From a virus: 32,876 nucleotides of DNA. The DNA lies in the IMG/VR virus record IMGVR_UViG_3300028044_000039, positions 1-32,876 of that record, one strand, 5' to 3'. Below, one piece after another: positions 1 through 26,526 of this stretch (position 1 is its first letter; every line of letters starts with the position of its first letter). Made by a program: the position numbers and the translations under genes. Below the pieces are notes generated by a model. The model made no database searches. It was given only the letters and a program-made list of their open reading frames with translations, and was not told the origin of the DNA.

Positions 1-3000
1 TCAATTTATAATGTAGAAAAGGCAATTATAAATGGTAGTACTTATTATAAAATTTCTATTTCAAAAGGAACTACAGTTGGTAAGTTTCTTCAAGTAGGAA
101 AAACTTTTATTACAAAAACATCTGGTGCTGGATCTACTATTATCAACATTGATAGTACAGTAGGATTTGGTACAACAGGAAATCTAAATTATGAAGATCT
201 TCAATTTTCGTATACTGATAAAAATTATACTCAGTTCCTTGGGGTTTCTGGTATTACGACAACTGTAGGTATTGGTTCAACTGTTTTTGCTTCTGGATTT
301 CAAACATACTCGTATGAAGATGGAGATTTAAATACTCCAGTTTATTTAAACATTGTAGGAACAATTAGCAATTTCAATGGATCTGCAATAAATCAGCAAG
401 AAGGAAGTAATATCAATGTAAAAACTTTAGGTATTGAACAAAAAGACATTAGATTTACTTCATGGATTTACAATATTCCAACAAAATATATTGTTAACAA
501 TATTATTTCATTGGGTTCCAATGTATATGAATTTGTATTTTTCTCGGATCATATTCTGTACGTTGGTGATATTCTTGATATTGTGGATGAAGATAATAAT
601 ATTATTGTAGGAACTTTACTCCAAATCATTAATAATAAAACAATCCAAGTCAACTGCTCTGCTTTAAATTTATCTAAAAAACATTTTATTAGAAGACAAC
701 TAAAAACAAATAAAGATTACACTGCAGATGTTCAAAACGTTTATTCTGCTGGTGCTGATGTATACGTCGCATCAAATAGTATTCCACACTGGACTATAAA
801 TCCTCAAAAGAGAATTAGAAACTTTACTACATCTGGAGTTGCAACAAGTACACAAATTTTAATTACAGATCATCATTTCAATGATGGTGAACTTGTAGTA
901 TACAAACCATCAAGCACAAATGGTGCTGTATCTGGATTGAGCACTAATCAATCTTATTATATTCGTAAAATAGACGATAATACGGTTTCACTTGCATATT
1001 CACTAGAGAATGCTCGTAGAGGTCAACATATCACTATTTTTGGATCTAGTGATTTATCTGGAATTACCACACATTCTTTAACTCCAAGTAATGTTGGGTT
1101 TTCTACAATTGGAGCACAAAAATTACTCAGAAAGTTTTTAGTTCCTGAGTATAGTGAGACTAAAATTGAGACAATTCCAGGTGGAGTTGGATTATTTGAC
1201 AACGGAGTAGAGATTTATTCTTATAAATCAACTGATCAAGTTTTCTATGGTCCAATTCAATCAGTTAGTGTTTTAAATGAAGGATCGGACTTTGATGTAA
1301 TCAATCCAACTAGACTTTCTGTTTATCAAGATGGGCATACTGGTGCAGGTTCATCTGTTATTGCACACGTATCAGGAACCATTAAAGAAATTCTTGTCGA
1401 TACTGAAGGATTAGATTATACAAGCACTCCAACTGTTTATATTAGTGGTGGTAATGGTTCTGCAGTAGCAGAAGCAAAAATGAAGTTGGTTGCTCATCAA
1501 GTAGATTTTGATAGCACTAGCACTGGTGGTATTGTAGATACTGTTACTGATAAAATTACCTTCCCAGAAGCACATGGATTTAAACATGGTGAAGAAATTG
1601 TTTACAACACTCGTGGAACAACTCCTATTGGTCTTGGAACAACTCCAGGAACACTTATTAACGGTTCTTCATATTTCGTCATCAAAAATAACGACTATAC
1701 TATTTCATTAGCAGAAACAAGACAGAAATCTCTTGTTGGTATTGCAACTCTTGATATTACTTCCAATGGTCAAGGACTTCATGCTTTTTCAACTAAAGAA
1801 AGAAGACTAAAAGTTGATAAAGTTTATGTTATTGAAAATGGCACATTTTCCAATAAAGAAAATACGACAACTCCTGTTGGTATCAATACATTCACGGATG
1901 TAATCACAATTAGTAATCATGGATATACTTCTGGTGAAGAACTAAAGTATTCAACAACAGAATTATCAGTTGGTGGATTAAACACAACCTCCAGATATTA
2001 TGCTATAAAAGTCGATAACAACCAATTTAGAGTATCAATTTCTACTAGCCTAACAAATTACATTGGACTAACTAGTATTGGATCTGGATATCATATCTTC
2101 AATTATCCACCAATTACAATCACTCTAAATGGTCCTCAAGGTATTACAACGGCAAATGCTACTGTTACTCCAATTGTAAGAGGATCTATATCTGATGTTC
2201 ATGTAAAAGTTGGTGGGGATGATTTTGGATCGACAATCATCAATGATAATTATAGACCAGAAATAAGAATTATTGAAGGATCTAACGCATCACTAAGACC
2301 ATTGATTGTAAATGGTAGACTTGATAGTGTTATTGTAAAAAGTGGTGGTTCAAATTATTTTAGTATTCCAGACATCATTATTGATGGTGATGGTTTTGGT
2401 GCAAAGGCAAAGGCAAATATATCTAATGGTCAAATTATAAGCGTTGATGTTATTGATCAGGGTGCTGGATATACAACCAATGGAACAACAATTACTGCAT
2501 CGACACCTGGACAAGGAGCAATATTCTCGTCCAATTTAAAAAAATGGACAGTTAATAAAGTTGAAAAATATGCAAAAATTGGTGACGTAAGTTCTGATGA
2601 TGGTTTCTATGAAACTGTAAGAAATACTAAACTTGGTAATCCATATGTTAATTACTACGTCCCAAGAATTCTGAGAACTTTCTTGGGAGATAATGGATCT
2701 CAACATTCTCCAATTTTAGGATATGCATATGATGGAAGTCCAATTTACGGACCATATGCATTTGCAAATTATACTGGAACTGGAGCACTAAAATATCTAC
2801 AACCAAGTTATGCAAAGATTTCTGGTGCAAGAGTTAATGGTCCAAATATTTCACAATATCCAGCTGGATTTTTTGTTGAAGACTTTACATATGTTCAAGG
2901 TACTGGAGATTTAGATGAATATAATGGTCGCTTTGCAATTACGCCAGAATATCCAAATGGTGTTTATGCATACTATACAACAGTCTCATCCTCTGTTGTA

Positions 3001-6000
3001 AATGACAATGGTAGTCCTTTCAATGGAGTAAGACAACCAGTATTTCCATATGTAATTGGTAATTATTACAACTTCACTCCAAACATTTTCAACTACGATT
3101 ATAATTCTACACAAGATATTGATCCTATTACTCTAAACTTAGTAAGAAACACTGATGCTTATAAGATCAATGATGGGTATGAATTTATTTCAAATTCAAA
3201 TAAGAATACAACTACACAATCTAAGATTTCTAAAATAAAATCTGGAAGCGTAGAACGGATTGATGTAATAGAAAGTGGTTTAGATTATACTGTTGGAGAT
3301 AGAATTGTATTTGATAATTCAAATACTTCTGGATTTGGTGCTATCGCAAAAATATCAAAAATTGTTGGTGTTGCAGTAACAGACATAACTTCATCAATAA
3401 CAACTTTGAGTAATATTGATCTAGTATGCAACAATAGATCAGTAACTGCAATTTCAACAACCCCACATAATCTATCAGATGGTTCTTATGTAAGTATTGT
3501 TGGAATATCTTCTACATCATTTAATAATATAACGGGAACGTTTAGGATCGATGTAAAAGGTGTAACATCTGGTCTAGCAACTTCTATGCTAGCAACTGGA
3601 CTTACAACTAGTGTTCAAATAATAGATCTTGCATCAAAGTTTTCTGTAAATGACATTATAAAAATTGATAGTGAGCAATTCCTAATTATGGGAATTGATA
3701 AAGCAAATAATAAATTAAATCTACAAAGAAGATATAATGGAACAACAGGTGCTGCACATACAAATCGTTCAGAAATTGTTAATCTTGAAAGAGAATTTAC
3801 TTACGAACTTGATAAGGTAGTTTCTCTGTCAACTCCTAAAAATGAAACAGTATTTTTTGATGCATCATCCTCTGTTGGTGTTGGATTGACTTATGGTGTT
3901 GGTATTGGAACAACAATTTCTTACATTGGAGCGGGAAATAGTCAGAAATCGATCTTTATACCTACTAGAAGTATTTTCTTACCAAACAATCCTCTGCTTC
4001 ATGGTGAGGAAGTTTTCTACAGTCCTGGTGCTGGTACTTCTTTGACATATTCATTGAATGGTAGTACAACATCTCCGATGCCATCAAAGATGTATGTACA
4101 GAAACTTACAAAAGATTTGATTGCACTTACAAATGTAAAGACTGGTATCAATTCTGATTTATCACGAGTTTTCTTCAATGCAAACATTGGAATTGGCAAT
4201 AGTCATTCTTTTACAACTAGGAGAAATATTGTATCGTGTAGTGTAAAAACAGTAAATGTTGTTGTATCTACTGCATCTTCTCATCGATTAAGACCAGATG
4301 ATGTCATTGATATGACAGTTGTTTCCACTGCTACAAGTTCAGTGTCTGCAATATATGATCCTATTACTCGATTTGTAAGTATTGGTTCATCCATCAACCC
4401 TAGAATTAATATTGTTACCGGAGATTACTTAGAATTTGATGTTTCTAATGCAAGTTTACTAAACACTAAACTTGAATTTTTCTTAGATCAAAGTTACAAT
4501 AAAACATTTGTTGGATCTGGTGTATCTGCATTAGAAATTACAAATCAATTTGCACCAGGAATTACATCCGCAAAAACAACAATACATTTTACAGAACAGG
4601 TTCCTTCAATATTATACTACAAATTTACTTCTCAAACTCCTTCCAAAATTGTTGAAATTAATAAAGATATTAATGAATATTCAAAAATAGTTGTTCATAA
4701 TAGTAAATTTACTGGAACACATTCACTAACAACAACAACAAATCAAACATTTACATATAATATATTTGAAATACCAGAAAGAGTAGGTTATACCAGCGCA
4801 TCATATATCAATTACACAACAAATTCTACTAATACAAAGGGGTCTATTGCAAAAATTGATATTTTGGATGGTGGAAAAAATTATAAATCTACACCTAAAG
4901 TATCTGCATCGTCCACAACAGGATCTTCTGCAACACTGAGGACATATGGATCAAATATTGGTTCTATTGATATTGTTCAAATTTTAGATTTTGGATATGA
5001 CTATCTATCAGATAAAACACTACAACCACAAGCAGCAGTTCCTCAAGTTATTACACTTAAAGATAATTATAGTGTTGACACTGTTGCAATTACTTCTACT
5101 GGGTCAAAATATCTGTCTGCACCAAATCTAATTGTTTATAATAGAAAATCTGATATTGTCAATACTGAATCAAGTATTGTTGCTTCTCTATCTGGAAATA
5201 GTGTTGGAGCTGTAAGAATTATCAATGCTGGAGGAAATCTCAAGAGCACTGATAATGATCTTATTGCAGTCAATAATACTAATGGTGTTGGAATTATTAG
5301 TGCTACGTATTCTATACCAAATGTAACACTGAAATTACAAACACCATCTTCAGGATTTACTACATCCAATCCACTACCATTTACCATTGGAGATCAAGTA
5401 TTTGTTGAAAATATTGGGGTTTCTACTGGTAAAGGATATAACTCCGCACAGTATGATTATCGCTATTGGACAATTACTGGAGTAAACACTGCATTTGGAC
5501 TAGTCAATCAAGCCACAATTTCTTATGCAGTAGATGAAAATCCTGGTGTTCATGATGGATTATTATACGGAAGTGTATCTAACGTAAAGGATCTTGCTAC
5601 ATTTAGTTTGACACTAAAAGAAGGTGATTTTTATAATGGTGAAGAAGTCTATACTAAAACGTCATCAGCAAAAGTTATTGCTGGAAATGGTTCCGTAACA
5701 GATGTATTGAGAATTGATAGTCTTGTTGGTCTCAATACTGGTGATTTGTTGAAAGGTAGAATTTCAGGTGCTTCTGGAATCATTGAAAGTATGCAGAGTT
5801 ACTCTGGATACTTTGATGTTAATTCAACTATTTCAAAAGATTTTGGATGGGAAAGAGATACTGGAAAACTAAATGAATTTTTTCAAAGAATTCATGATAG
5901 TGATTACTATCAACAATTTGCATACTCCCTAAAGAGTAAAGTTGGTATCAGTAGTTGGAGTGAACCAGTTGATAGTTTGGCACACATTGCAGGTTTCAAA

Positions 6001-7383
6001 AAACACTCAGATTTACTTGTCCCATCAGATAGTCTTGCTGGACTCGGTAGTACTAGTGTCTCAACTGGAATTGGATCTCAAGCGAGTACAATTATATTGG
6101 TCAATTCAGACGCTACAAAATTATATTGTAAACATAATTGGGATCTTGTTTATGAAAAAACAAATAGTGATGCAACAATCAGCGATAAAATTGTATTCAA
6201 TTCAAATAGATTTGGTAGTTCTCTAATTTGTAAGTCTAACAGAGTACTTGAAATTGATGACATTAGCCCACAATTTTATTCAGATCCCGATATAAGTAGA
6301 TCTATAGAACTTGATAGTTTTGACTTCAATCAAGCATCTGCAATTAAATATTATGCACAAGTCGTACTTGATACTTCGTTAGGAATTGTTTTTAACGAAA
6401 CACAATACACAGAATTTGTCGTTTCTCATAACGGCACGATATCGTTTAACAACCAATACTCGGATTTATCTGATGCATTTGATTTAGGTGATTTTAGTAC
6501 TTCAATTTCTGGAACAACTGTATCAGTTCTATTCTCACCATACAATACAACATTTACTTACGACATAACTTTCTACAAAGAAAAAATTGAACCAAGTGTT
6601 GGTGTTGGAACTACTTCATTTGGACATATTCAGAAAATAGGTATTGCTTCTTTCATAGCAGCATCTGGATCTCCAACACAACAAATTATTCAATCCATTA
6701 ATGCAAACGAATTCAAAAGTGGTAGTGTAATTATTTCTGTTATAGGAGTAAATCAAAAAAATATTGTTGAAGCATCTTTCCTAGGAATAGGATCTACTGC
6801 TCAATATGTTGAGTTTGGTAAGATGGGCAGTGGAGTTGGACTTGGAACATTTAGTGTAGATATGACAGCAACAAATACACTTCATCTAAAGTGGTTACCT
6901 GCCGCTGGAGTTGGTGTAACGGTTGCTATGCTATCTACCCTAGTTGGTGTTGCAACTACAGTTTCTAGCGGTATTCCAGGCACATCCCGTGAAGTTGGAG
7001 ATGCTTCTTTAAATTGTACTAGAACTACAATTTCTTCTTCGGCATCCCCATCAGCAGAAACTATATCAATTATTTCTTCCAACAATTATGTTTCTGTAAA
7101 ATACCTTGTTGAAATTCATAATACAACGGATAATGTATATTCATTCTTCCATGTTGCAGCAAACATTTATGGTGATGTGATAAATTATATAAAATATAAT
7201 AATCTTTCAACTTCAGTTGATCTTACAAGAGATATACAAAATACTGATATGGTTGTTTCAGGATCTAATGGATTATTGAGATTTACTCCAAGAACAAATA
7301 AAGCATACATTGTAAGAACATCTGAAATTATGATTGATAACCCAGATGACGTAGCATCTGATGTTGTTATAACCCTTCCATAA
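1..7383 (+). CDS. Giant virion structural protein, gene 7 position (5' end outside window)
   Basis: The frame is open from base 1, so the TTG at 511 is internal and the true start lies upstream; 2460 codons are visible. Residues below count from base 1. The chain is beta-rich and built from repeated modules: several HGx-xGE-type units (about 280-700 and 1325-1405), several GxxYxxxP-type units (about 420-500, 725-845, 1080-1125, 1615-1765) and one unit ending in RRYNGT (about 1200-1265). Residues 909-920 (YAYDGSPIYGPY) match the YHYH-type motif. A conserved segment HDSDYYQQFAYSLKSK lies near 1965-1980. It lies two genes upstream of gp8, where T4 has gene 7 (wedge initiator, about 1030 residues), so a baseplate-wedge role is inferred. 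No enzyme motif is seen. It could instead be a side-fibre or whisker-type protein. Structural identity is sure; the gp7 equivalence is not. Confidence 0.8.
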   Translation, partial: SIYNVEKAIINGSTYYKISISKGTTVGKFLQVGKTFITKTSGAGSTIINIDSTVGFGTTGNLNYEDLQFSYTDKNYTQFLGVSGITTTVGIGSTVFASGFQTYSYEDGDLNTPVYLNIVGTISNFNGSAINQQEGSNINVKTLGIEQKDIRFTSWIYNIPTKYIVNNIISLGSNVYEFVFFSDHILYVGDILDIVDEDNNIIVGTLLQIINNKTIQVNCSALNLSKKHFIRRQLKTNKDYTADVQNVYSAGADVYVASNSIPHWTINPQKRIRNFTTSGVATSTQILITDHHFNDGELVVYKPSSTNGAVSGLSTNQSYYIRKIDDNTVSLAYSLENARRGQHITIFGSSDLSGITTHSLTPSNVGFSTIGAQKLLRKFLVPEYSETKIETIPGGVGLFDNGVEIYSYKSTDQVFYGPIQSVSVLNEGSDFDVINPTRLSVYQDGHTGAGSSVIAHVSGTIKEILVDTEGLDYTSTPTVYISGGNGSAVAEAKMKLVAHQVDFDSTSTGGIVDTVTDKITFPEAHGFKHGEEIVYNTRGTTPIGLGTTPGTLINGSSYFVIKNNDYTISLAETRQKSLVGIATLDITSNGQGLHAFSTKERRLKVDKVYVIENGTFSNKENTTTPVGINTFTDVITISNHGYTSGEELKYSTTELSVGGLNTTSRYYAIKVDNNQFRVSISTSLTNYIGLTSIGSGYHIFNYPPITITLNGPQGITTANATVTPIVRGSISDVHVKVGGDDFGSTIINDNYRPEIRIIEGSNASLRPLIVNGRLDSVIVKSGGSNYFSIPDIIIDGDGFGAKAKANISNGQIISVDVIDQGAGYTTNGTTITASTPGQGAIFSSNLKKWTVNKVEKYAKIGDVSSDDGFYETVRNTKLGNPYVNYYVPRILRTFLGDNGSQHSPILGYAYDGSPIYGPYAFANYTGTGALKYLQPSYAKISGARVNGPNISQYPAGFFVEDFTYVQGTGDLDEYNGRFAITPEYPNGVYAYYTTVSSSVVNDNGSPFNGVRQPVFPYVIGNYYNFTPNIFNYDYNSTQDIDPITLNLVRNTDAYKINDGYEFISNSNKNTTTQSKISKIKSGSVERIDVIESGLDYTVGDRIVFDNSNTSGFGAIAKISKIVGVAVTDITSSITTLSNIDLVCNNRSVTAISTTPHNLSDGSYVSIVGISSTSFNNITGTFRIDVKGVTSGLATSMLATGLTTSVQIIDLASKFSVNDIIKIDSEQFLIMGIDKANNKLNLQRRYNGTTGAAHTNRSEIVNLEREFTYELDKVVSLSTPKNETVFFDASSSVGVGLTYGVGIGTTISYIGAGNSQKSIFIPTRSIFLPNNPLLHGEEVFYSPGAGTSLTYSLNGSTTSPMPSKMYVQKLTKDLIALTNVKTGINSDLSRVFFNANIGIGNSHSFTTRRNIVSCSVKTVNVVVSTASSHRLRPDDVIDMTVVSTATSSVSAIYDPITRFVSIGSSINPRINIVTGDYLEFDVSNASLLNTKLEFFLDQSYNKTFVGSGVSALEITNQFAPGITSAKTTIHFTEQVPSILYYKFTSQTPSKIVEINKDINEYSKIVVHNSKFTGTHSLTTTTNQTFTYNIFEIPERVGYTSASYINYTTNSTNTKGSIAKIDILDGGKNYKSTPKVSASSTTGSSATLRTYGSNIGSIDIVQILDFGYDYLSDKTLQPQAAVPQVITLKDNYSVDTVAITSTGSKYLSAPNLIVYNRKSDIVNTESSIVASLSGNSVGAVRIINAGGNLKSTDNDLIAVNNTNGVGIISATYSIPNVTLKLQTPSSGFTTSNPLPFTIGDQVFVENIGVSTGKGYNSAQYDYRYWTITGVNTAFGLVNQATISYAVDENPGVHDGLLYGSVSNVKDLATFSLTLKEGDFYNGEEVYTKTSSAKVIAGNGSVTDVLRIDSLVGLNTGDLLKGRISGASGIIESMQSYSGYFDVNSTISKDFGWERDTGKLNEFFQRIHDSDYYQQFAYSLKSKVGISSWSEPVDSLAHIAGFKKHSDLLVPSDSLAGLGSTSVSTGIGSQASTIILVNSDATKLYCKHNWDLVYEKTNSDATISDKIVFNSNRFGSSLICKSNRVLEIDDISPQFYSDPDISRSIELDSFDFNQASAIKYYAQVVLDTSLGIVFNETQYTEFVVSHNGTISFNNQYSDLSDAFDLGDFSTSISGTTVSVLFSPYNTTFTYDITFYKEKIEPSVGVGTTSFGHIQKIGIASFIAASGSPTQQIIQSINANEFKSGSVIISVIGVNQKNIVEASFLGIGSTAQYVEFGKMGSGVGLGTFSVDMTATNTLHLKWLPAAGVGVTVAMLSTLVGVATTVSSGIPGTSREVGDASLNCTRTTISSSASPSAETISIISSNNYVSVKYLVEIHNTTDNVYSFFHVAANIYGDVINYIKYNNLSTSVDLTRDIQNTDMVVSGSNGLLRFTPRTNKAYIVRTSEIMIDNPDDVASDVVITLP

Positions 7384-7386
7384 ATA
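7379..7386 (+). promoter_or_regulatory. T4-type late promoter, CATAAATA
   Basis: One mismatch to the T4 late element TATAAATA. It contains the TAA stop of the upstream giant gene (7381-7383) and lies 12 bases before the ATG at 7399, which would give a very short leader. Its place in a 15-base gap is the main support; the motif alone is weak in AT-rich DNA. Confidence 0.5.
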
Positions 7387-7398
7387 CTCTAAAAAGAC

Positions 7399-10300
7399 AT
7401 GGGATTTGAGTTAGGATCTGTAAATAAAAAATATAATTCAGCAACGGAAACCTTTAGGTATTCGTTCAATTTGACGCACGAAGGAGATCCTATTTTTCAT
7501 AAAACATTTGACGGATCTAATACTTCTAAAGTTTTACTTAGTGCAGATACTTTTGTTATCAGCAATCATTTTTTTGTAACTGGAGAACCGCTTTATTATA
7601 ATGCTGGTCCAGGAAATTCTGCTATTGGTATTGATCACACTAGCACTGGCGTAGGTGGTGCTACAACTTTACCACAAAAAGTATTTGCAATAAAAATTAG
7701 CGAAAATAAATTCAAGGTTGCAGCTGCAGCAACTCTTGCAATTTCTGGAAATGCTATAGGTCTTACCACGGTTGGAGTAGGAACAACTCATACATTTACA
7801 GCAGAAAAACAAAATATCAAATGTATTATTGCTCTCGATAATGTAATTCAATCTCCAATTTATAAAAGAATAGGTTCTGCAACAACCCTATCATCAATAA
7901 ACAATAGAATTATTCAAGTCAATGATATAAGTTTATTCAAGAATTATGATTTGATCCAAATCAATGATGAAATTATGAGGATCCAAATTGTAGGTTTCAA
8001 TGCTAGTCCTAATGAAATGTTGGTTGATAGATCATGGATGGGAACATCTGTAGGAAGTCATTCTGTGGGAGACAATATTCAACTTGTATTTGGTGACTAT
8101 AATATCAATAAAGATATAATCACATTTGCAGATGTTCCTTTTGGTGGTATTCGATATACTGTTGGATTTTCATCATCTAATGTAAATTTGATAACAACAA
8201 GTTTTACTGCTTTAGATGATATTTTTACAACAGGATCTAGAGTTCTTTTACGAAGTTTAACACCGCCAGCACCATTAGTTTCAAATGAAAATTATTTCTT
8301 AATAAAACAATCTGCCAACAACTATTCATTTGCATCAAGTTTAGACGACGCAATCACAGGAATTGCAATTAGTCTTACTAACACTGGTATTGGTACACAC
8401 AATCTTGTTTATATTGATGTCACTAATGGAAGTTCTTTTCAAGGAAGATCTTTTATCCGATCTAATTATGAAGGAAATATTGTTATTGATGATATCTCAC
8501 AAAACTTTACTGGAATAGCAAAAACATTTACTATAAAAAGTTCTGGTGTAAATACAACTGGCATTACAAGCGATTTTGGTGTAATATTAGTCAATAATAT
8601 TTTTCAAAAACCAGAAGTAGACTATCAATTTTTAGGTGGAGCGTCAACAGGAATTACTTCAATAAGATTTACTGGTAATAGCAATGCAGTTGTAGAAGCA
8701 TATAGCACATCTGATGTAAATGCTAATAAATTGCCAAGAAAAGGTCTTATTGTTTCTTTAGCAAATTCTGAAGGTTATGGATATCAACCAAGGTATGTCG
8801 GAACAGGAACCGCAGTGGTCTCTGGATTTGGAACAATCACAGTTGCACTGGGATACTCTGGCAGCGGATACAGAAACGGTCAAACTACTTATAGAATTCA
8901 TGTCAATGGCGGAAATCCTACGACTGGAGCTGCTGGCACGTTCACTGTCCTAAATGGAAACATTGATAAGATTTTTATTAATACTCCAGGTGCAGGTTAC
9001 ACTTCAACAAATGTTCCTGCAATTTCTTTTGATGCTCCAATTTCATATGATGATATTCAATTGATTAGTTCTTCAACAGGTATAGGTGCTTCTGCATCTA
9101 TTGTTGTTGGATCTGGATTAAGTATAACATCATTCCAACTAAACAATATTGGATACGGATTTACTGTTGGAGAACAACTAAGAATTGCTGGAATTCCAAC
9201 TGTTACTAGTATTGGATCTACTTTTGCAAATTCAATCTTTACAGTGGTTGAAACTAGAGATGATGAATTCGCTGGGTGGGTTCTTGGAAAATTACAAGTA
9301 CTTGATGATTTTTCTTCAGAATTTGATAGCACTCAAACAACATTTACTATTACTGAAAATGGAATTCCTCTAAGTATTGAAAAAACTGTAGGAGCACCAA
9401 TCAATTTAGCAGATGTTTTATTGATATTTATTAATGATGTTCTTCAAAAACCAGAAGAATCTTATACTTTTGAAGGTGGAACTCAAATAACGTTTACAGA
9501 ACCACCCGTTGCAGGATCTTCTTTACAGATACTATTTTATAGAGGAACAGATGCTGATATTGATACTACAACAGCACTCGATACTATAAAAATTGGTGAT
9601 GGTGTAACAATTCTTAAAAATCCAAATCAAATTATTCCTGTTGAACAAAATGAAAGAATTGTCAGAGCAATAGTTTCTAGAGATACATTACAAACCAACA
9701 ATTATAATAAACAAGGAATTAGTCAATCAACATCTCCACTAAGACCTGTTGTTTGGTGTCAACAGCAAGAAGATTTGTTTGTTGATGGTATCAAAGTGAG
9801 TAAAGCAAGAGTTGAGTATGCTGCAAAAATTAAACCAACTGCAAGAATTATCAAAAATGTTAGCACGTCTGATAGTGTTTTCTATGCTGATGGAGGTAGT
9901 TTAGTATTCAGTAAAACAGAAGATCCAAATACAACATCATTTGATATTCAAATTATTGATAGTGATAAAGACAATACCGGATTTGGAACAACATCATTCA
10001 TTAAACCTATAGAAACAGTTTCATCAGTTTCTATTTCTGGTGATGAAGGTATTATTACTGGAATTGGAACTACCAGTCAGGGATTGCAGTTCAATTTCTT
10101 TATTCCTCTAAATTCACCACTAAGAGATGCATCTTTTGGTAACACATTAGTAACTGGCATTTCAACTGGTGACTATTTTATAGTATCTAGATCCAATATT
10201 GGAAATGGAGTAACTGCTTTATCCCAAGATAGATCAAGTACTGTTGGTATCGCAACTCAACTCTTAGATGGCATCTACCAAGTAAGTCATATCAGTCCAG

Positions 10301-10560: not shown

Positions 10561-12099
10561 ATGCCAGCGGTCATTACTGATCAGATCAGAGTATTGAATT
10601 CATCAAATTTTGTCAGTGGTATTTCAACTTCTGATAATAGTTATTACGTGTTTATTGGTTTACCAAATGCAACTGAAGTAAGTGCAGATTGGAATACTAA
10701 TACGCCATATCCAATTGATGGTTTTGATCAATATAACGATATTTACGATACTCTAATTTCTGCTAAAAAAATTACATCAAGTGATGTTCTAAAAGTTATT
10801 AGAAAAATTTCTTGGACATCAGGTATAATTTATGAAATGTACCGTCACGATTACAGTATAAACAGAACTTCACCCCAAACTGGTGCAACTAGTTTGTACA
10901 GGTCAAATTTTTATGCAATGAACTCTGACTACAGAGTTTATGAGTGCATTTATAATGGTGCTGCTCCTTCTAATAGTGGAAACGGAATTATTTCTCTTGA
11001 AGAACCAACACATACTGATCTTCAACCAAGATTAGAAAGTGATGGGTATATTTGGAAATATCTATTTTCTATCAAACCAAGTGATATTATTAAGTTTGAT
11101 AGTGTTGACTATATTTCTGTTCCTGCTAACTGGAAAACAAACTCCGCTGTTGCTGATGTTAGAAACGCTGCAGTTGATGGAAGAATTGAAGTTATTACTA
11201 TCGAAAGTGTAAGTTCTGCTTCATATCAATACAGTGGAACAAAAAATAATGTACCAATTAAAGGTGATGGTCAAGATGGATTGGCATCAGTTACTTTTAT
11301 TGATGGAAAACCAACAACTGTAACAGTAACTAATGGTGGGACTGGATATACTTTTTCTACACTAGATCTTGATAGTGTTGTTACTGGATCTGGTGCAAGT
11401 TTTTCTGTAATTATTCCTCCTCCAGGTGGACATGGTGCAGATATTGATAAAGAACTTGGTGCCAATAGAGTTCTAATTTATTCAAGAATTGAAAATAGTG
11501 ATGTAACAAATCCAGATTTTCCAACGGGAAATCAGTTTGCAAGAATTGGTCTAATCAAAAATCCTTTGGTCAATGGAACTTCAAATTTATTGACAGCATC
11601 TTCTGCATCTGGTGTATATGGTCTTCGTTTGACTGGTGCTGCTACAACAACAATGAGTGTATCTGTTGATGGGCAAGTCAGACAAACAATTGGTGTTGGA
11701 TCAACTGCGGTTGGGAAAATTATTTCATATGATCCTGTTACAAAAATTTTAAAATATTGGCAAGATAGAGATCTTGCTACTGACAGTTCAACTGGATCAA
11801 AACCAACCTACGGATACCGTCTAAATAAGTTTACAAGTTCTCCAGGAACAGGCGGAGGTGTAAACGTAGTTGTAACAACAACTACTGGCACTGAAACCGT
11901 AGGTATTGAAACAACATTTACTGGAGTTTCAACAACGGTCAACTCAAGAACTTATTACTTTGGACAAACATTTAATAATGGTCTTGCACAACCAGAAATT
12001 AAAAAATATTCTGGAGAAATCATTTACGTTGATAATAGACCAGAAGTAACAAGAGCTACAAACCAAAGAGAAGATATTAAAATTGTATTAGAGTTCTGA
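10561..12099 (+). CDS. gp8: Baseplate wedge protein gp8
   Basis: Homologue of T4 gp8, which forms a dimer in each baseplate wedge and contacts gp7 and gp10. The conserved block DGYIWKYLF (161-169), followed within 30 residues by a YISVP strand, matches the T4 protein region DGYVWEYLFEIPPD. The N terminus (residues 10-60) also has the T4 pattern of a short leading strand, a YYVFIG strand and a Pro/Asp-rich loop. The protein is 512 residues against 334 in T4. Part of the extra length is a GxGY module at about 252-285 (T261-G-Y-T264), of the kind repeated in gp14 and the giant protein upstream. The ATG lies 21 bases after a late-promoter motif. The next gene starts 4 bases after this stop with no promoter between, so the two are probably co-transcribed. 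Confidence 0.9.
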   Translation: MPAVITDQIRVLNSSNFVSGISTSDNSYYVFIGLPNATEVSADWNTNTPYPIDGFDQYNDIYDTLISAKKITSSDVLKVIRKISWTSGIIYEMYRHDYSINRTSPQTGATSLYRSNFYAMNSDYRVYECIYNGAAPSNSGNGIISLEEPTHTDLQPRLESDGYIWKYLFSIKPSDIIKFDSVDYISVPANWKTNSAVADVRNAAVDGRIEVITIESVSSASYQYSGTKNNVPIKGDGQDGLASVTFIDGKPTTVTVTNGGTGYTFSTLDLDSVVTGSGASFSVIIPPPGGHGADIDKELGANRVLIYSRIENSDVTNPDFPTGNQFARIGLIKNPLVNGTSNLLTASSASGVYGLRLTGAATTTMSVSVDGQVRQTIGVGSTAVGKIISYDPVTKILKYWQDRDLATDSSTGSKPTYGYRLNKFTSSPGTGGGVNVVVTTTTGTETVGIETTFTGVSTTVNSRTYYFGQTFNNGLAQPEIKKYSGEIIYVDNRPEVTRATNQREDIKIVLEF

Positions 12100-15100: not shown

Positions 15101-18100
15101 GACTTTAGACCACGAGTAGCAGACTATAGTGGAACATTATCACCATTTGAATTTTCATCAAGAAACTTTGGTGGATCTGGACAAACTGTTCCAAATGTGA
15201 TTGTTTCTGATGAAAATATTGTTTTAGACTATAATTTCTATACGGGAAGAATTGATAGACTATTCCTCAATCAGGACAATACATTTACTATTGCAAAAGG
15301 TGTTTCTTCTCAACGTCCAGTTTTACCAGAAGCAATTAATGGGTCATTTGAACTTGCAACAATTACATACGCACCATATGTTTATAACGTAGATACTGAT
15401 ATAACAATTGAATTTAAAGCGAATAAGCGTTATACAATGCTTGATATTGGAAAACTTGAGAATAGAATTGCTGGTTTAGAATATTATACAAGCCTGTCCT
15501 TGCTTGAAGCAAAAACATCAAGTTTAGTTATTAAAGACCCAGATACAGGACTTGATAAATTTAAGTCTGGATTTGTTGTAGATAATTTCAGCACATTTGA
15601 TGTTGCAGATAAAACACTGCCTGTATTAAAGTATGATATTGAAAATAATGAAATGGTTGCAAGATCATATTATGATAGCATTGACCTTTTAGTTGGATCA
15701 CAATCTCTTATCGGTACAAATGGAGTATCAAATTTAAGTGTTGATGTACGTTATGTAAATGATCTTGGATCTACAAATATTAAGAAGTCAAAAAATATTG
15801 TAACTCTAGATTATTCTGAGGTAGAAGATTTTAAACAACCATTTGCAAGTAGAGCAGTAAATGTCAATCCATTTGATGTTGTTACTTGGCGTGGTAATAT
15901 GTCTCTTAATCCAACGCAAGATGTTTGGATTGAGAGAGAATATAAAACTATTGATGGTGGTTTTGGAACTACTGAAGTTATTACAACTTCAACTGCAATT
16001 CCAAATCTGAGAGCACAGAATATTGAATTCAAAGCATCGAGACTAAAACCAGCAACTAAGTTCTTTAGTTTCTTCTCAAGAACAGATATGTCTGATAATA
16101 GGACGTTGACTGTTCCTAAACTATTAGAAGTAACACCAGTTCAAGGATCTTTCCAAGTTGGAGAAACAGTTGTTGGAAGACTTCTTTCTAACCAAAATAC
16201 AACAACAAATCTAGAAATTAGATTTAGGCTTGCACAAGCAAACCATAAAGATGGTCCATATAATATACCAACAGCAGTTTACAATAATAATCCATATTCA
16301 AATGTTGGATTAAGTTCTTTCTACAGTGATACAACTGAAGTATTGAATATTGATACTGCATCACTAAATCAAAAATCTGATGAAAGATTTTTTGGTTCCC
16401 TTGTTCAAGGAATGAAACTTGTTGGTGAAACGAGTAAAGCAGAAGCAACTGTAAAAGAAATTCGTTTAATTAGTGATGCAAATGGTGTTCTGATTGGAAG
16501 TATTAACATTCCAAAAACAAATCTAAAATTTGCAAACGGAACAAATACTGTTGAAGTATCTGCGGAAAAAACCCCATCAAATATTCCTGGTGTGGTTGTA
16601 AGTAGAGCAGACGCAAACTTCTTCTCACAAGGAACATTACAAACACAAACAACTATTGTTCGTCGTCGTCCACCTCCCGCACCATCAGACCCATTAGCAC
16701 AATCATTCTTTGTTGAAGAAGATCCTGGTATTTTCTATACCTCAGTTGATCTTTATTTTGCAACAAAGAGTTCAATAATTCCTGTAGAACTTAGAATTGT
16801 AAATGTCGTAAATGGTTTTCCTTCTGGAACTATTATTGAAGGGTCTAGTGTTATCAAATATCCAAACGAAATTACAACTTCAAGTACAGGATCTTTAGAA
16901 ACAACATTTACATTTGATGCTCCAGTTTATCTACCAAAAGGCGAATATGCATTTGTAATTCTTGCTGATACCGATGCATATAATGTTTGGATTTCTCGTG
17001 TTGGAGAAGAAGATATTTCAACTGCAAACTTACCAGAAATTCAAAAAATTATTATCAATAAGCAACCATCATTAGGATCTTTATTCAAGTCACAAAATGC
17101 ATCTACTTGGGAAGCATCGCAACTTGAAGACCTAAAATATGTTGCACGTAAAGCAAAATTCAATACACAAAAGGGAACATTTAAGTTTTATAATCCAGAA
17201 CTAAGGACATATAATTCTAGAAATATCCTACAAGCAAATCCAATTGAAGTATTTGCTAAAAAAGTAACCCTTGGGTTATCTTCTGCGATTACATCTCCAT
17301 TTATTGTTGTTGGATCCCAAATTAAACAAGACAATAGAACTTCCAGTGGATTTGTAGAAAGTCTAGGTGGTGCTGTTGGACTTGCCAATACTGGATTAAG
17401 TGTTACTAATGTTGGTGTTGGATATTCTAATGGAATATTCCAAGGAGTAAACTTTACAACAGTTACTGGATCTGGATCTGGATCTACTGGTATCGTTACT
17501 GTCAGTGGTGGTGCTGTTTCTAGTGTATGTGTCACTGCTAGTGGTGGTGGATATGTAGTTGGTGATACGCTAACAGCTACGCTTGGTAGTAACACATTAG
17601 GTCAAAATTTAACCTTAACTGTAGGTGTTGTTACCTCAACAAATACTCTTGTTCTAACTAACGTAACTGGACAAGAGTTCAATACATCAGATCAAATTCA
17701 GTATGTACCAACTGCAGGTGCTGGTGTTGGTGTTGGATCAACTCTATTCTCTATTGTTCCTTCTACTGCTACAATCAACACAGATCAGTATGATGGAACA
17801 TATTTCAAAGTAAACCATAAGAACCATGGAATGCACGCTGATAACAATATTGTCACAATTACTGGAATTAGTGGTGATACTGTAGCGACTTCAATTCAAG
17901 TTGGATATGCAGTAAGTTCTATTGCTAATATCAGTGTCGCAAGTAGCACAAATTTCAATATGTTTGAAGGTGTTCAAGTTTCTTCATCAAATCCAGGATT
18001 TGCTTTAGTTGGTGACGAAATTATTGCATATATTGGTGTTGGCAACAATATTCTAACTGGTATCACAACCAGAGGAGTTGATGGAACAACAGCAAGAACT

Positions 18101-19090
18101 TATGAAGCAAATACACCAATTCAAAAATATGAATTTGCTGGTGTATCGTTAAGAAAAATTAATACCACACACAATCTTATCAATTCGTCAAATACAATTC
18201 AGGATAAAATAACCCTTGATCAATATCATGTAAAAATTTCAGGAGCAGAAGTATTCAACTCCAGTAAAATTGGTGGTGGATCAAATGCTAAGGCAACTCA
18301 AAATATTCAATTTGAAAGTATTGTTCCTCACATTGATTATAATCTTCCAAATGGAACAAGTATTAGTGCTCAGGTAAGAACAACATCTGGAACAAGTATT
18401 GATGGAAGTGAAGTATCATTCCAGGATAAAGGATATGAACCAGTTTCGCTAACAAATGAAACAACTTTTAACGATCCAAGAATAATTGCTTCTAGACCAA
18501 ATGAAGAAGCAAAACTTCTTGCTCTTCCTGGTGCTAAATCATTTACTTTTGAATTGGAATTGAGTACAACCAATGAAAATGTGTCTCCAAGTATAAACGC
18601 ATTTGAAAGTTTCGTTACTACTCAGTCTCATAGGGTAAACAGTCCAATTATAAATTATGCTACAGATAGAAGAGCAAATCTTCTTGTAGAGGATCCACAC
18701 GATCTTTCGTATCTAACTAAGATAATTGCTCTAGAAGCACCTGCAACTTCACTCAAGGTCCTTTTAGATGCTTATAGGCAAACATCAACAGATATTAGAA
18801 TTCTATACCGATTGTTTAGAGTTGATGGTTCTGAACTTGATAAAGTGTTTGAATTATTCCCTGGATACGATAATCTTGATGCTAACCAACAGGTTATCAA
18901 TATTAAAAATAATAGTGGAAGATCCGATAGGAATATTTCCGCAAGTCTCAATAATCAGTTTGTAGAATATATTTGGACGGCAAATAGTCTACCACAGTTT
19001 AGTGCATATCAAATTAAAATTGAATGTTCAACTACAAATCAAGCACAATCACCAAGGATTAGAAACTTTAGAGCAATTGCATTAGCGTGA
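12104..19090 (+). CDS. Very large tail/baseplate protein, DUF4815-like N terminus
   Basis: A 2328-residue structural protein. Its N terminus (NTNPYYDDFDQAKNYNKI, then FKPGVPIQARELTTLQSILQ) resembles the DUF4815 family found at the start of large phage tail proteins. Residues about 1105-1160 hold a helical segment (LDIGKLENRIAGLEYYTSLS). A basic, proline-rich hinge RRRPPPAPSDPLAQSFFVEE lies near 1518-1537; the PLAQSF block is typical of the family. Later parts carry a GGGY unit (about 1800-1830) and a module like the gp15 C terminus (about 1935-2010). The gene sits where T4 has genes 9 and 10, so it may connect fibres to the baseplate; this is inferred from position, as no clear gp9 or gp10 similarity is visible. 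It starts 4 bases after gp8 and overlaps the next gene by GTGA. Confidence 0.8.
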   Translation: MPQNTNLNTNPYYDDFDQAKNYNKILFKPGVPIQARELTTLQSILQDQVEKFGKHFFKEGSVVIPGSIAYDDRYYAVKVEPTFFGVPVERYYDQLVGLTIQGKTSGITAVVKKVLSKNQSIEGVTTLYVKYQKSSEQDYSTDQFLDGENLVTLTTFTYGSTTIAAGSDFSTCILTKATATGYSFSVTEGVFFARGAFIAVNDEIIILDQYSNTPSYRVGFFVNEEIISAVEDSSLSDNAQGYSNYTAPGADRLKISLSLIKKNLDDYQDENFIELFRVKNGEVKKIINKTVYSEIAKELARRTYDESGDYYVNQFDLQAKESLNDRYSTFGVFFPEENTDQGNKPSKDLLEIQIGSGKAYVKGYEVETIGTTFLDVEKPRETTTVLGAGIPFQAGNLLRVNNVYGGASVGLATTGYVDLRSHRLGSNKSATAGQSVGRARIYDYKCTNADYSNNASQFDLYLYDIQTDTEITLNQTLSLSAPALIEGKNSGAKGYLRSISGNILTLHQTSGNFIVDEAILVNEIENGRVITKVLEFDITDVRSVRSEVGITTFSVDTVLEPKINFGAKPFTITSGSGGVSTVTSSTSGWTVGIKTGDIVSYARTDVSGSVFNRVKTITPTAQSLTVEAVTNVVGVATGTLPPGAVSFSGLLVVAPKIRNSSSGFMYAEFPNKNIESVDLTTSDIFIRKEYRDRSSSSLGSLDLPSLAGTDFVYAPFDEERYSIFYMDGTVEPLTQDQFQLTNGGKGATIFGLSKVNQTGVVAVTTQQKSKVTSKNKVLNRSASVTVSGSKYNYSGISTGVSDGLIYTNAYGKRVQDKEISLDVADVVNVHAVFQSSTNGAPTVPSLVLSSLNGPNGTNQDLINSEILIGNTSGASALVLGKTATNQIYYITKNNQSFLETEQVTFQESGVTGNISQINLGDPNILDNFSFDTGQRLEYYDFGRLIRKSGSQEPSRQLKVYFDYFTINSSDNGEIITTNSYPDYNENIQTFNNIRNTDVIDFRPRVADYSGTLSPFEFSSRNFGGSGQTVPNVIVSDENIVLDYNFYTGRIDRLFLNQDNTFTIAKGVSSQRPVLPEAINGSFELATITYAPYVYNVDTDITIEFKANKRYTMLDIGKLENRIAGLEYYTSLSLLEAKTSSLVIKDPDTGLDKFKSGFVVDNFSTFDVADKTLPVLKYDIENNEMVARSYYDSIDLLVGSQSLIGTNGVSNLSVDVRYVNDLGSTNIKKSKNIVTLDYSEVEDFKQPFASRAVNVNPFDVVTWRGNMSLNPTQDVWIEREYKTIDGGFGTTEVITTSTAIPNLRAQNIEFKASRLKPATKFFSFFSRTDMSDNRTLTVPKLLEVTPVQGSFQVGETVVGRLLSNQNTTTNLEIRFRLAQANHKDGPYNIPTAVYNNNPYSNVGLSSFYSDTTEVLNIDTASLNQKSDERFFGSLVQGMKLVGETSKAEATVKEIRLISDANGVLIGSINIPKTNLKFANGTNTVEVSAEKTPSNIPGVVVSRADANFFSQGTLQTQTTIVRRRPPPAPSDPLAQSFFVEEDPGIFYTSVDLYFATKSSIIPVELRIVNVVNGFPSGTIIEGSSVIKYPNEITTSSTGSLETTFTFDAPVYLPKGEYAFVILADTDAYNVWISRVGEEDISTANLPEIQKIIINKQPSLGSLFKSQNASTWEASQLEDLKYVARKAKFNTQKGTFKFYNPELRTYNSRNILQANPIEVFAKKVTLGLSSAITSPFIVVGSQIKQDNRTSSGFVESLGGAVGLANTGLSVTNVGVGYSNGIFQGVNFTTVTGSGSGSTGIVTVSGGAVSSVCVTASGGGYVVGDTLTATLGSNTLGQNLTLTVGVVTSTNTLVLTNVTGQEFNTSDQIQYVPTAGAGVGVGSTLFSIVPSTATINTDQYDGTYFKVNHKNHGMHADNNIVTITGISGDTVATSIQVGYAVSSIANISVASSTNFNMFEGVQVSSSNPGFALVGDEIIAYIGVGNNILTGITTRGVDGTTARTYEANTPIQKYEFAGVSLRKINTTHNLINSSNTIQDKITLDQYHVKISGAEVFNSSKIGGGSNAKATQNIQFESIVPHIDYNLPNGTSISAQVRTTSGTSIDGSEVSFQDKGYEPVSLTNETTFNDPRIIASRPNEEAKLLALPGAKSFTFELELSTTNENVSPSINAFESFVTTQSHRVNSPIINYATDRRANLLVEDPHDLSYLTKIIALEAPATSLKVLLDAYRQTSTDIRILYRLFRVDGSELDKVFELFPGYDNLDANQQVINIKNNSGRSDRNISASLNNQFVEYIWTANSLPQFSAYQIKIECSTTNQAQSPRIRNFRAIALA

Positions 19091-22734: not shown

Positions 22735-22740
22735 ATTGCT

Positions 22741-22926: not shown

Positions 22927-22940
22927 ATAAAAAATATCAA

Positions 22941-22948
22941 CCTAAATA
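22941..22948 (+). promoter_or_regulatory. Late-promoter-like CCTAAATA
   Basis: This lies 15 bases after the stop of the 61-residue gene and 125 bases before the ATG at 23074. It is in the longest gap of the window (22927-23073, 147 bases). If used, it would give a leader that includes the hairpin at 23042. A weaker TTTAAATA overlaps the stop at 22922-22929. Confidence 0.35.
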
Positions 22949-23041
22949 ATACCAACTTAGAGACAACATTCAATCTAAACAATCATTCGTAAAGAGAGTA
23001 TATACTATTTCTGACGGCGATTATATGAATGGAAAAAAGTC

Positions 23042-23069
23042 TCTGCTTTATAGCAGATTTTTTATTTTT
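23042..23069 (+). terminator. Hairpin with T-run just before the second fibre gene
   Basis: TCTGCT/AGCAGA is a perfect 6-base stem with a TTAT loop (23042-23057), followed by TTTTTT, A, TTTTT. A run of A before the stem could extend the pairing. It has terminator shape but ends five bases before the ATG at 23074, so it may instead act as a leader structure. Confidence 0.6.
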
Positions 23070-23073
23070 GTAA

Positions 23074-24273: not shown

Positions 24274-24279
24274 TAAATA
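24272..24279 (+). promoter_or_regulatory. T4-type late promoter, AATAAATA, before gp13
   Basis: This overlaps the stop at 24271-24273 and lies 19 bases before the gp13 ATG at 24299. It would drive the gp13-gp14-gp15-gp16 run, in which no further clear late promoter is seen. Confidence 0.5.
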
Positions 24280-24298
24280 GAAAAAAGTAGATATATCA

Positions 24299-25144
24299 AT
24301 GGCAAACCCTGCTTCTAGACAGGAATTAGTAAACTACGCAAAAAGACAACTTGGGTATCCTGTATTAGAGATTAATCTTGCCGATGAGCAAATTGAAGAT
24401 TTGATTGATGATGCTATTCAAATTTATCAAAATCGACATATGGATGGTGTCGAATTGATGTATTTGAAATTTAAAATTACTCAAAATTTTATCGATTCAA
24501 TTCAAGCAAGAGGATCAAATAAATCAATAGGAATTACTACATCAACAGGGACATCAAATATAACTGGCATAGGAACAACTACATTCTCCTTTGAAGAAAA
24601 TCAAAACTTTATTCAAGTTCCAGATGCAGTTATTGGAATTGAAAAAGTTTGGAAATTAGATAATCGTGCAATTAGCACGAATATGTTTAGTGTAAACTAT
24701 CAATTATTTTTGAATGATATTTATTGGTTTAGTTCTACTGAACTATTGAACTATACTATGACAAAAAGATATTTGGAAGATATAGATTTTATTCTACATC
24801 CAGATAAACAAATTAGGTTCAATAGAAGACAGAATAGATTATACCTAGACACAGATTATTCTAGTATGAAGGTTGATGATTATATTATTATTCAATGCTA
24901 TAGAGTTCTAAATCCAAATGAATTTACAAAAGTTTATAATGATCCATTTTTGAAGAAGTACTTTACTGCTTTGATGAAAAGACAATGGGGGCAAAACCTA
25001 ATCAAGTTTAGGGGAGTAAAACTTCCAGGTGGAATTGAGTTGAATGGTCGTGAAATTTATGAAGATGCCTTAGGAGAATTAGAAAAACTAGAAGAAAGAA
25101 TGACTTATGATTATGAACTTCCTCCATTAGATATGATCGGATAA
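24299..25144 (+). CDS. gp13: Neck protein gp13
   Basis: Homologue of T4 gp13, which forms the head-completion ring with gp14 below the portal and lets tails join heads. The N terminus (ASRQELVNYAKRQLGYPVLE, then INLADEQIEDLIDDAI) is the conserved helical start of the family in marine T4-like phages, followed by QIYQNRHMDGVELMYL. The middle has a YxxFLNDIYWF region, and the C terminus has a FTALMKRQWGQNLIKFRGV helix. At 281 residues it is near the T4 length (309). Residues about 78-100 form a Gly/Thr/Ser loop (GITTSTGTSN, then GIGTTTF). The stop overlaps the gp14 start by one base (TAATG), so translation is probably coupled, as suits partners in one ring. Confidence 0.9.
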   Translation: MANPASRQELVNYAKRQLGYPVLEINLADEQIEDLIDDAIQIYQNRHMDGVELMYLKFKITQNFIDSIQARGSNKSIGITTSTGTSNITGIGTTTFSFEENQNFIQVPDAVIGIEKVWKLDNRAISTNMFSVNYQLFLNDIYWFSSTELLNYTMTKRYLEDIDFILHPDKQIRFNRRQNRLYLDTDYSSMKVDDYIIIQCYRVLNPNEFTKVYNDPFLKKYFTALMKRQWGQNLIKFRGVKLPGGIELNGREIYEDALGELEKLEERMTYDYELPPLDMIG

Positions 25145-26526
25145 TGCTTAATCCATTTTTTACGCAAGGAACTAAATCAGAACAAACTCTTGTGCAAGAG
25201 TTGATGGATGAGCACATCAAAATTCATGGTATTGAATTTATTTACTTACCAAGAATTTTTGTAAATACCAAATCTATAATGCGTGAAGTTTCGACTTCAA
25301 AGTTTAATAAATCTTTTCCTATTGAAGGATATGTTCAGAGTTATGAAGGATTTGGTGATCCTGGAAGCATTTTAACAAAATTTGGTGTTAGAACAACTGC
25401 AGAAATGCAAATTGTTATTTCACAAAGAAGGTTTGAAGATAGCATTACTCCATTGCTAGAAAATGTAACTAATTTACCAAATAATCCATCTAGACCATTA
25501 GAAGGAGATTTATTATACTTCCCATTATCAGATACTCTTTTTGAAATCAAATTTGTTGATAATGATCAACCAGCATTTTTTCAATTACAAAAAAATTACA
25601 CATACCTTTTGAAGTGTGAAGCATTTGAATATGAAGATGAAATTATAGATACTCAAATTACTGAAATTGATAATGAATTTGGATCGTTTGGATATAATGC
25701 AATTCTTACTTTTGTTGGTATTGGATCAACTGCTGCTGCATTTACATCTCTAGTTAATGGTGGCGTTCATACGATTAATATCCTTAATGAAGGAACGGGA
25801 TATACTGCAGATCCCACAGTTAGAATTGCTCCTCCAGGTATAGGTAGAACAGCGCAAGCAGTTGCAATTACTACAGAAAATAGTAGTGGTACAAGATCAC
25901 TACAAGCGATTTATGTTACAAATACTGGATATGGATATACAACAATACCAAAAGTTCAAATTATTTCTACAGATGGAAATGGAACTGGTGCGGTTGCGGT
26001 AGTTGGAATTGGAACGACTGGTTCTGTTGGCGTCGTAACAATAACTACTAGTGGTAAAAACTATGTCTTACCACCAACAATTACATTTACTAATGCACCT
26101 TCTGGTGGAGTTACCGCTATTGGAACTGCAGTTCTTAATACGCAAAATAATCTATCAGCAATCAGAATTATTAATGCGGGTTATGGATATACGCAAGTAC
26201 CCACAATTACAGTATCTGCTGCAGGAACTATTGGTGTGGGAACATATATGTTTGGAGATATTATAAGGGGAGTTTCTACTGGTACAACTGCAATTACAGC
26301 ATCTTGGGATAAACCAACTCTAACAATGAGAGCACGTAGTTTGACTGGTAAATTTGCTCCAGGTGAAATGATCATTGGTGCAGGAACTACATTTGGTAGT
26401 GTTGCGTACATCCTAAATACAATCAACTATGATGATGACGATCCATTTGAGCAAAATCAAGAAATTCAATCCGCAGCAAGTACAATTCTTGATTTCTCTG
26501 AAAACAATCCATTTGGTGAGATATAA
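25144..26526 (+). CDS. gp14: Neck protein gp14, enlarged by four inserted repeats
   Basis: Homologue of T4 gp14, the second head-completion ring protein. Residues 1-185 hold the conserved family part: NPFFTQGTKSEQTLVQELMD, then EFIYLPRIFVN and the FPIEGYVQSYEGFGDPGSIL region. The C-terminal part (about 375-460), ending in DDDDPFEQNQEIQSAAS, also looks native. Between them, about 200-360 is a run of four beta units with Tyr at 220, 265, 307 and 349 in GxGYT, GYGYT, GKNYV and GYGYT. This makes the protein 460 residues against 256 in T4. The same unit occurs in the giant protein at 1-7383 and in gp8, so it looks like an acquired surface decoration. It starts inside TAATG with the gp13 stop. Confidence 0.9.
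   Translation: MLNPFFTQGTKSEQTLVQELMDEHIKIHGIEFIYLPRIFVNTKSIMREVSTSKFNKSFPIEGYVQSYEGFGDPGSILTKFGVRTTAEMQIVISQRRFEDSITPLLENVTNLPNNPSRPLEGDLLYFPLSDTLFEIKFVDNDQPAFFQLQKNYTYLLKCEAFEYEDEIIDTQITEIDNEFGSFGYNAILTFVGIGSTAAAFTSLVNGGVHTINILNEGTGYTADPTVRIAPPGIGRTAQAVAITTENSSGTRSLQAIYVTNTGYGYTTIPKVQIISTDGNGTGAVAVVGIGTTGSVGVVTITTSGKNYVLPPTITFTNAPSGGVTAIGTAVLNTQNNLSAIRIINAGYGYTQVPTITVSAAGTIGVGTYMFGDIIRGVSTGTTAITASWDKPTLTMRARSLTGKFAPGEMIIGAGTTFGSVAYILNTINYDDDDPFEQNQEIQSAASTILDFSENNPFGEI
25755..26240 (+). repeat. Four GxGYTxxP modules inserted in gp14
   Basis: The unit Tyr codons fall at 25801, 25936, 26062 and 26188, which are 135, 126 and 126 bases apart (45, 42 and 42 codons). Each unit reads roughly: hydrophobic strand, GxGYTxxPTV, then a Gly/Ala-rich strand. 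DNA identity is low; the repeat is visible at protein level. Confidence 0.8.

Follow-up and report, generated by a model that had tools for sequence, protein, structure and literature searches.

The stretch analyzed here (the window) comprises the 32,876 nucleotides of IMG/VR virus record IMGVR_UViG_3300028044_000039, and it is 100% identical to bases 12417-45292 of G001, a 172-kb IMG/VR contig. It covers the structural gene block of a marine phage of T4 type near Kyanoviridae, and its gene content includes a gp7-type protein, gp8, a VrlC-type protein, a fiber region, gp13, gp14, gp15, gp17 and gp18. The element under study is a short beta repeat with a GxGYT-type turn which occurs, mostly as tandem pairs, in several of these proteins, and which we call the module (Table 1).

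According to the initial annotation, this repeat was spread through at least five unrelated virion proteins. All five open reading frames (ORFs) that it named do hold the module, and searches with hidden Markov models (HMMs) against controls found the unit at every named place, weakly at some; the number of genes, however, is four. ORF1, which is truncated by the window edge (the full ORF in the identical contig G001 has 2732 amino acids, aa), and the 7399 ORF both match PHROG 2885. Single ORFs of S-SM2, P-TIM68, P-SSM2 and S-SRM01 match parts of both, and in B23 two ORFs do so. The two ORFs are therefore halves of one gp7-type protein, here gp7a and gp7b, and the host genes of the module are three baseplate genes and one neck gene. 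The name gp7 was taken from GenBank and PHROG; in PMC7029224, T4 gp7 is regarded as absent from these phages. Three further G001 proteins hold units, one of them a gp5-like hub lysozyme. The phage's own gp18 showed no module with the pair HMM (nothing above 0 in the part within the window and nothing above 10 bits in the 734-aa gp18 of G001).

Table 1. Genes, module copies and other features of the window (nucleotide positions; aa, residues of the protein named).
Feature	Position	Strand	Evidence or remark
gp7-type giant baseplate wedge protein, first half (ORF1, gp7a), several module pairs	1..7383	+	PHROG 2885, E=0
gp7-type protein, second half (7399 ORF = ORF2, gp7b), 1045 aa	7399..10536	+	PHROG 2885, 1.5e-202; matches C-terminal part of fused gp7 ORFs
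gp8 baseplate wedge protein, one inserted module pair	10561..12099	+	PF09215, 8.9e-13; PHROG 438
VrlC-type protein (DUF4815; 12104 protein = ORF4), one module pair	12104..19090	+	PF16075, 2.2e-54
gp14 neck protein (head closure), four-unit array	25144..26526	+	PF11649, 4.1e-24; PHROG 460
Module pair in gp7a, aa 416-501	1246..1503	+	33.8 bits (best of 1616 controls, 13.3)
Possible degenerate pair in gp7a, aa 683-761	2047..2283	+	11.0 bits, background level
Module pair in gp7a, aa 771-852	2311..2556	+	50.9 bits; end overlaps start of YHYH match
Weak GxxYxVGD-type unit in gp7a, best defined at 3241-3372	3160..3453	+	13.5 bits, at control maximum
Module pair in gp7a, aa 1613-1683	4837..5049	+	27.1 bits
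Module pair in gp7a, aa 1689-1777	5065..5331	+	15.9 bits
Module pair in 7399 protein (gp7b), aa 478-552	8830..9054	+	21.6 bits; 17.5 with pooled unit HMM
Possible further unit in gp7b	9043..9243	+	10.6 bits, background level
Module pair in gp8, aa 200-290	11158..11430	+	17.8 bits; six strands by AlphaFold2; without counterpart in T4 gp8
Module pair in VrlC-type protein, aa 1761-1847	17384..17644	+	16.2 bits; hhalign 96% to gp8 pair
Four-unit array in gp14, aa 205-377	25756..26274	+	39.5-49.1 bits per unit (HMM including them), 22.1-34.0 (HMM excluding them)
YHYH domain in ORF1, aa 823-1000	2467-3000		PF14240, 3.1e-24; begins inside end of a module pair
132-nt tandem repeats in ORF7	20464-20860, 21408-21691
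Two copies of a 54-nt repeat in ORF13	28744-28849
Recombination endonuclease VII-like ORF	29556-29972		PF02945, 1.1e-16; between ORF13 and gp17

A two-unit HMM was built from ORFs that a motif scan had picked in other viruses and in bacteria; it gave 50.9 bits in gp7a, 41.9 in gp14, 21.6 in gp7b, 17.8 in gp8 and 16.2 in the 12104 (VrlC-type) protein. The maximum among 1616 shuffled or reversed control sequences was 13.3 bits, so all five named ORFs exceed every control, and the remaining 11 window ORFs gave nothing above 0 with this HMM. The stretches at 2047-2283, 3160-3453 and 9043-9243 score at background level with it (Table 1). The search that the initial annotation had proposed, with an HMM of the four window gp14 units, succeeded in part: ORF1 scored 9.8, 7.8, 7.7 and 7.6 bits and gp8 scored 8.5 bits, while the best of 816 shuffled or reversed sequences reached 5.8 bits; the 12104 protein had only 1.5 bits, and the 7399 protein gave no hit. 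As the sole detector it was rejected as too narrow. When the HMM was built from gp14 units of several phages, the window gp14 included, ORF1 gave 22.6, 17.4 and 15.7 bits; the highest of 1616 controls was 11.4 bits and the next 7.5, and the maximum in the T4 region was 0.9. A pooled HMM of 47 units, all from other phages, detected the 7399 protein with 17.5 bits (control maximum 7.2 of 1616) and did not recover gp8 or the 12104 protein. It should be noted that the pooled and the pair HMMs contain no window sequence, and that their members came from searches started with the window gp14 units.

The copies were also linked to each other by profile-profile comparison with hhalign. The gp14 units gave 91-98% with three gp7a segments and 44-80% with the fourth (gp7a_1081), 81-92% with gp8, 78-92% with VrlC and 32-78% with gp7b; gp8 against VrlC reached 96% and gp7b against VrlC 94%, and thirteen control segments stayed at 7% or below in the segment-to-segment comparison. 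For the GxxYxVGD-type unit of gp7a (3160..3453) the values were 44-88% with gp14 and the other gp7a segments, 86-87% with the VrlC pair and 15-34% with gp7b and gp8. Against a two-unit profile of 130 pairs, taken from motif-selected viral and bacterial ORFs, gp7b scored 78% and the other eight family segments 69-99%, compared with at most 0.4% for 13 controls (0% for the control segment gp7b 760-860). In addition, the module segments in the window have several PHROG matches in common. The presence of one homologous module in the named proteins is thus supported.

The organization of the repeats was studied in ORFs selected from viral and cellular contigs by scans with a GG[ST]GYT[ST]APT-type DNA motif, which favors consensus-like units (80 listed loci per scan; 160 of 237 stretches analyzed). 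These ORFs contained 557 units above 9 bits, compared with none in 486 locally shuffled ORFs of equal composition, and neighboring units were mostly 36-44 residues apart. Units occurred in even numbers in 135 of the 162 ORFs (P 9e-19) and, after dereplication, in 46 of 52 complete ORFs (P 5e-9); since even copy numbers prevail, the pair is the unit of inheritance. A viral ORF of 924 aa (L243), which has the look of a P22 gp10-type protein judged by sequence alone, carries at least 10 module units.

Each unit would be composed of a long strand, the GxGYT-type turn, a short strand and a Gly/Ala-rich strand, and two tandem units would build a six-stranded beta domain. AlphaFold2 predicted three strands per unit in gp14 (52 sequences; predicted local distance difference test, pLDDT, 81-93 in ten-residue blocks over 201-360) and six strands in a gp8 piece (46 sequences; pLDDT 80-91 over residues 21-90, mean 71.3). 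The top-50 BFVD lists obtained with Foldseek for the two models (47 and 50 distinct entries) have 12 proteins in common, and that of the gp8 model includes the gp14 neck protein H8ZN75 (E 9e-5). The expectation that the copies fold as the same separate domain agrees, for the gp14 and gp8 copies modeled, with the strands and the common matches; we infer that the pair, about 80 residues with six predicted strands from two 42-residue repeats, folds jointly. No PDB row among those listed covers the array of the gp14 model alone. Rows for EF-Tu and initiation factors (Z 5.5-6.8, 63-77 aligned residues, about 183-437) might reflect a barrel that residues flanking the array form in the model. Two proteins of Sylvanvirus, a giant virus, match the module models as well (BFVD A0A3G5AH46 and A0A3G5AH06; E 1.9e-6 and 5.1e-3).

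As the initial annotation pointed out, the T4 counterparts are shorter: gp8 has 334 aa in T4 and 512 aa in the window, and gp14 has 256 and 460 aa, respectively. The gp8 pair is an extra segment: T4 residues 211 and 301 align to window residues 188 and 479, and a pair above 10 bits is present at this site in nine of nine non-T4 gp8 proteins of the set and absent from T4 gp8. In gp14 the array separates the stopper core from the conserved C-terminal tail; in the gp14s of loci L024-L027 (238-241 aa) core and tail are joined by a linker of some 50 residues, and no unit above 6 bits was detected in any ORF of these loci. Units are found in all ten non-T4 gp14s of the set, and all 20 complete gp14s among loci L001-L022 have four. 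Four units were counted in 100 of 104 gp14s, which is no measure of overall frequency because the searches were seeded with unit-bearing gp14s. Syn9 gp14 has two units above 8 bits and S-SSM7 gp14 five or more; in the latter (L050, 34704-36989) a concanavalin/lectin-like segment lies between units (PF13385, 26.6 bits, just below the cut-off of 27.6). The VrlC pair can be seen by eye in eight of ten aligned proteins, the exceptions being Syn9 and HTVC008M, and it exceeds 10 bits in four of the ten (G001, G003, S-SRM01 and S-SSM7).

The module is also present in other kinds of proteins, among them tail-tube and sheath proteins of phage type encoded in bacterial genomes. In a Pseudomonas tail-tube protein (L403) the units at 113-193 lie inside the Phage_TTP_11 match (1-241), and a SusD protein from a bacterial genome (L363) contains a pair inside; the pair precedes the sheath domain in an Ancylobacter sheath protein (L395), adjoins the DUF2589 match in a Kordia protein (L370), and stands outside the recognized domain in a beta-helix (NosD-like) and a multicopper-oxidase-like protein. 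A Nostoc sheath protein (L379) with six units is encoded next to gp19-like tube and Pvc16_N genes, and judged by its genes the locus looks like a contractile injection system. The same locus (1-8000) also encodes an EAD8-domain protein. PHROG 460, 438, 2885, 701, 19630, 708, 4406, 5342 and others, which are connector, baseplate, structural and fiber families, are matched by module segments from the window and from the Nostoc array, and this shows that the module is common to them. Five module segments from the window matched no Pfam model above its cut-off and, with E allowed to reach 10, none of NCBIfam. With tblastn, the gp14 array retrieved 30 cyanophage or marine records at E 1e-5, and a Syn9 pair 66 records, of which the 60 listed all match residues 1-19 only; because of this narrow reach, searches without profiles understate the spread of the module. 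In the open-access literature searched, judged from titles and abstract openings, no description of the module was found, and motif strings yielded nothing or, among the papers listed, unrelated ones.

The predicted structure of the gp8 pair points to domain I of T4 gp18. Among the PDB rows listed for it, Z reaches 4 or more only in five rows of T4-like gp18 (around residues 98-190); they show Z 4.0-5.5, 73-75 aligned residues and a root-mean-square deviation (rmsd) of 2.8-3.1, and the next row among those listed has Z 2.4. By hhalign, the first half of domain I gave 95.0% with VGD-type units, 77.3% with all units and 32.6% with the remaining units, the maxima of 12 clean controls being 25.7%, 1.7% and 1.3%, respectively. 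Tested singly, gp7a_1081 gave 82-83%, VrlC 67-80%, gp7b 39-43%, gp14 units 3-4 16-51%, gp8 12-14% and the rest at most 2%, and the controls reached at most 14% (11 non-gp7b) and 1% (two gp7b). This sequence match is confined to about 19 columns. We consider it probable that the module is related to domain I. PMC3004832 describes domain I as a six-stranded barrel plus a helix, inserted in domain II and protruding, with no inter-subunit contacts; it binds the baseplate and the retracted long tail fibers, and the substitutions G106S, S175F and A178V in T4 gp18 inhibit fiber retraction. These three residues agree with the gp18 sequence once the initiator Met is removed, and G106, the glycine in the GSNY turn, aligns with the first Gly of GxGY.

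The explanation that we prefer, with a probability of about 0.65, is that a six-stranded pair domain was added to many unrelated proteins, anciently in this lineage, and has been retained in place as an exposed docking or adhesion knob. In several of these proteins the addition would have taken the form of an insert. In the T4-like lineage, positional orthology suggests that the gp7-type, gp8, VrlC-type and gp14 proteins had acquired it by the time the compared cyanophage genera diverged, and since then pairs would have been kept in place, some of them being gained or lost. The domain would fold independently and replace or extend a surface loop. Presumably exposed at the surface, it could project from baseplate and neck as a knob which docks accessory fibers or whiskers, or which sticks weakly to the host surface. 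This role is suggested by analogy with T4 gp18 domain I, to which retracted long tail fibers bind, and with immunoglobulin (Ig)-like inserts. We read the module as an ancient insert of promiscuous distribution, presumably at the surface.

The initial annotation had instead suggested a mobile module that jumps between structural genes by recombination. This is supported in part: the module is promiscuous (tail tube, tail sheath, SusD and DUF2589 proteins), and gp14 relatives without it exist (L024-L027). Active movement between the structural genes of this phage is very improbable. The promiscuity of the module over proteins and viruses would speak for it, as would the differences between genera: B23, P-TIM68, S-SM2 and P-SSM2 have pairs near the C-terminal end of gp7, the window gp7b has no pair beyond aa 615, and S-SSM7 gp14 has its larger array. 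Gain and loss of pairs does indeed occur between genera. However, in a nearest-neighbor test of 122 units at 18 positions set by alignment (15 segments outside 28-75 residues, G001 and G003 left out), the nearest neighbor was the same position in another phage for 103 units (6.1 expected at random), another position or gene of another phage for 17, and a unit of the same phage for two. Furthermore, the best cross-gene DNA score, 31, falls within the codon-shuffled maxima of 24-33 (20 rounds), so that no recent copying between genes was seen in the DNA, and the near relatives keep four units in 20 of 20 gp14s. This pattern fits an ancient spread followed by conservation in place, and current jumping does not fit it.

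Convergence of low-complexity Gly/Thr/Ser-rich beta repeats, in place of one homologous module, appears slightly more improbable still. The units are short, of this composition and of low identity, and a few shuffled sequences do score 11-13 bits; yet the locally shuffled ORFs lacked any unit above 9 bits, the spacing of neighbors is regular and the strands are predicted confidently. The main rival is a structural one, in which the pairs act as spacer or cement, filling gaps between baseplate and neck subunits and stabilizing the virion, with no binding role. The baseplate and neck nature of the four host genes is in line with it, and the positions are conserved across genera, as an interface would be. 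We nevertheless regard it as unlikely, although clearly less so than the two preceding alternatives: the module is found in non-virion bacterial proteins, T4 gp8 and the gp14s of L024-L027 do without it, and domain I, if homologous, is free of contacts between subunits (PMC3004832).

Several results weigh against the ancient, retained knob. The gp8 and VrlC pairs exceed the best control by just 4.5 and 2.9 bits, and part of the hhalign comparisons are low: gp7a_458 and gp7a_1613 gave 1-3% with VrlC, gp7a_1613 gave 7-9% with gp8, and gp7b gave 5-9% with gp7a_458, 2-6% with gp7a_1613 and 15-28% with gp8. Concerning domain I, its second half reaches 0.2-2.7% by profile, the general pair profile gives T4 domain I 6.9%, and the match of the gp8 pair model to PDB 3FO8 (Z 5.5, rmsd 2.8, 73 aligned residues) has Z <8, under the safe level of the tool. 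Finally, the SusD, NosD-like and multicopper-oxidase-like hosts are non-virion proteins; with such hosts no single virion role fits all, and a generic add-on is favored over one function.

A wider and more tentative proposal, to which we would give somewhat less than even odds, is that the module represents an unnamed superfamily of two-repeat beta add-ons, extending across the necks, baseplates, sheaths and tubes of tailed phages, the sheath of a cyanobacterial contractile injection system and bacterial surface proteins. T4 gp18 domain I would be its sole solved member, and the GxxY turn a common docking site for fibers or host glycans. The baseplate and neck proteins of marine T4-like phages are very large, and the module accounts for some of the length by which gp8 and gp14 exceed those of T4. 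It also makes functionally different PHROG families cross-match, which might lead to misannotation, and it offers a testable candidate site for accessory-fiber docking. If the link to gp18 domain I holds, the T4 mutant data apply to a domain of many virion and some bacterial proteins.

Other features were observed in the window (Table 1). For the YHYH domain of ORF1, a metal-dependent hydrolase is predicted (PMC7824862). Seven ORFs (ORF1, ORF2, ORF3, ORF4, ORF8, ORF10 and ORF16) together contain 14 copies of the hexapeptide [VIL]G[VILF]G[ST]T, compared with 0.14 expected from shuffled proteins. ORF7, which bears the 132-nt repeats, encodes a fiber-like protein of 873 aa with an Mtd_N start, and its G003 homologue has 1447 aa.

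With regard to known systems, the PHROG families listed above differ from the module in being whole-protein families, and none of them describes the module itself. The Ig-like domains of phage virion proteins are alike as promiscuous accessory beta domains on sheath and other structural proteins, for which help in adhesion has been proposed (PMC9230969). They differ in their sequence signature, and the module consists of two short repeats. The Pfam scans of window proteins and module segments gave no Ig family, and an antibody chain matched ORF1 817-930 weakly (E 0.33); the structure-match lists leave room for an Ig-like fold. T4 gp18 domain I (residues 98-188; PDB 3FO8, 3FOA) differs from the module in a second half that is unrecognizable by sequence and in an additional helix of its own. 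It resembles the predicted pair domain in its size, its six beta strands and its insertion into a virion protein, and its first half contains GSNYAVGD, which is similar to the GxGYxVGD units of the module.

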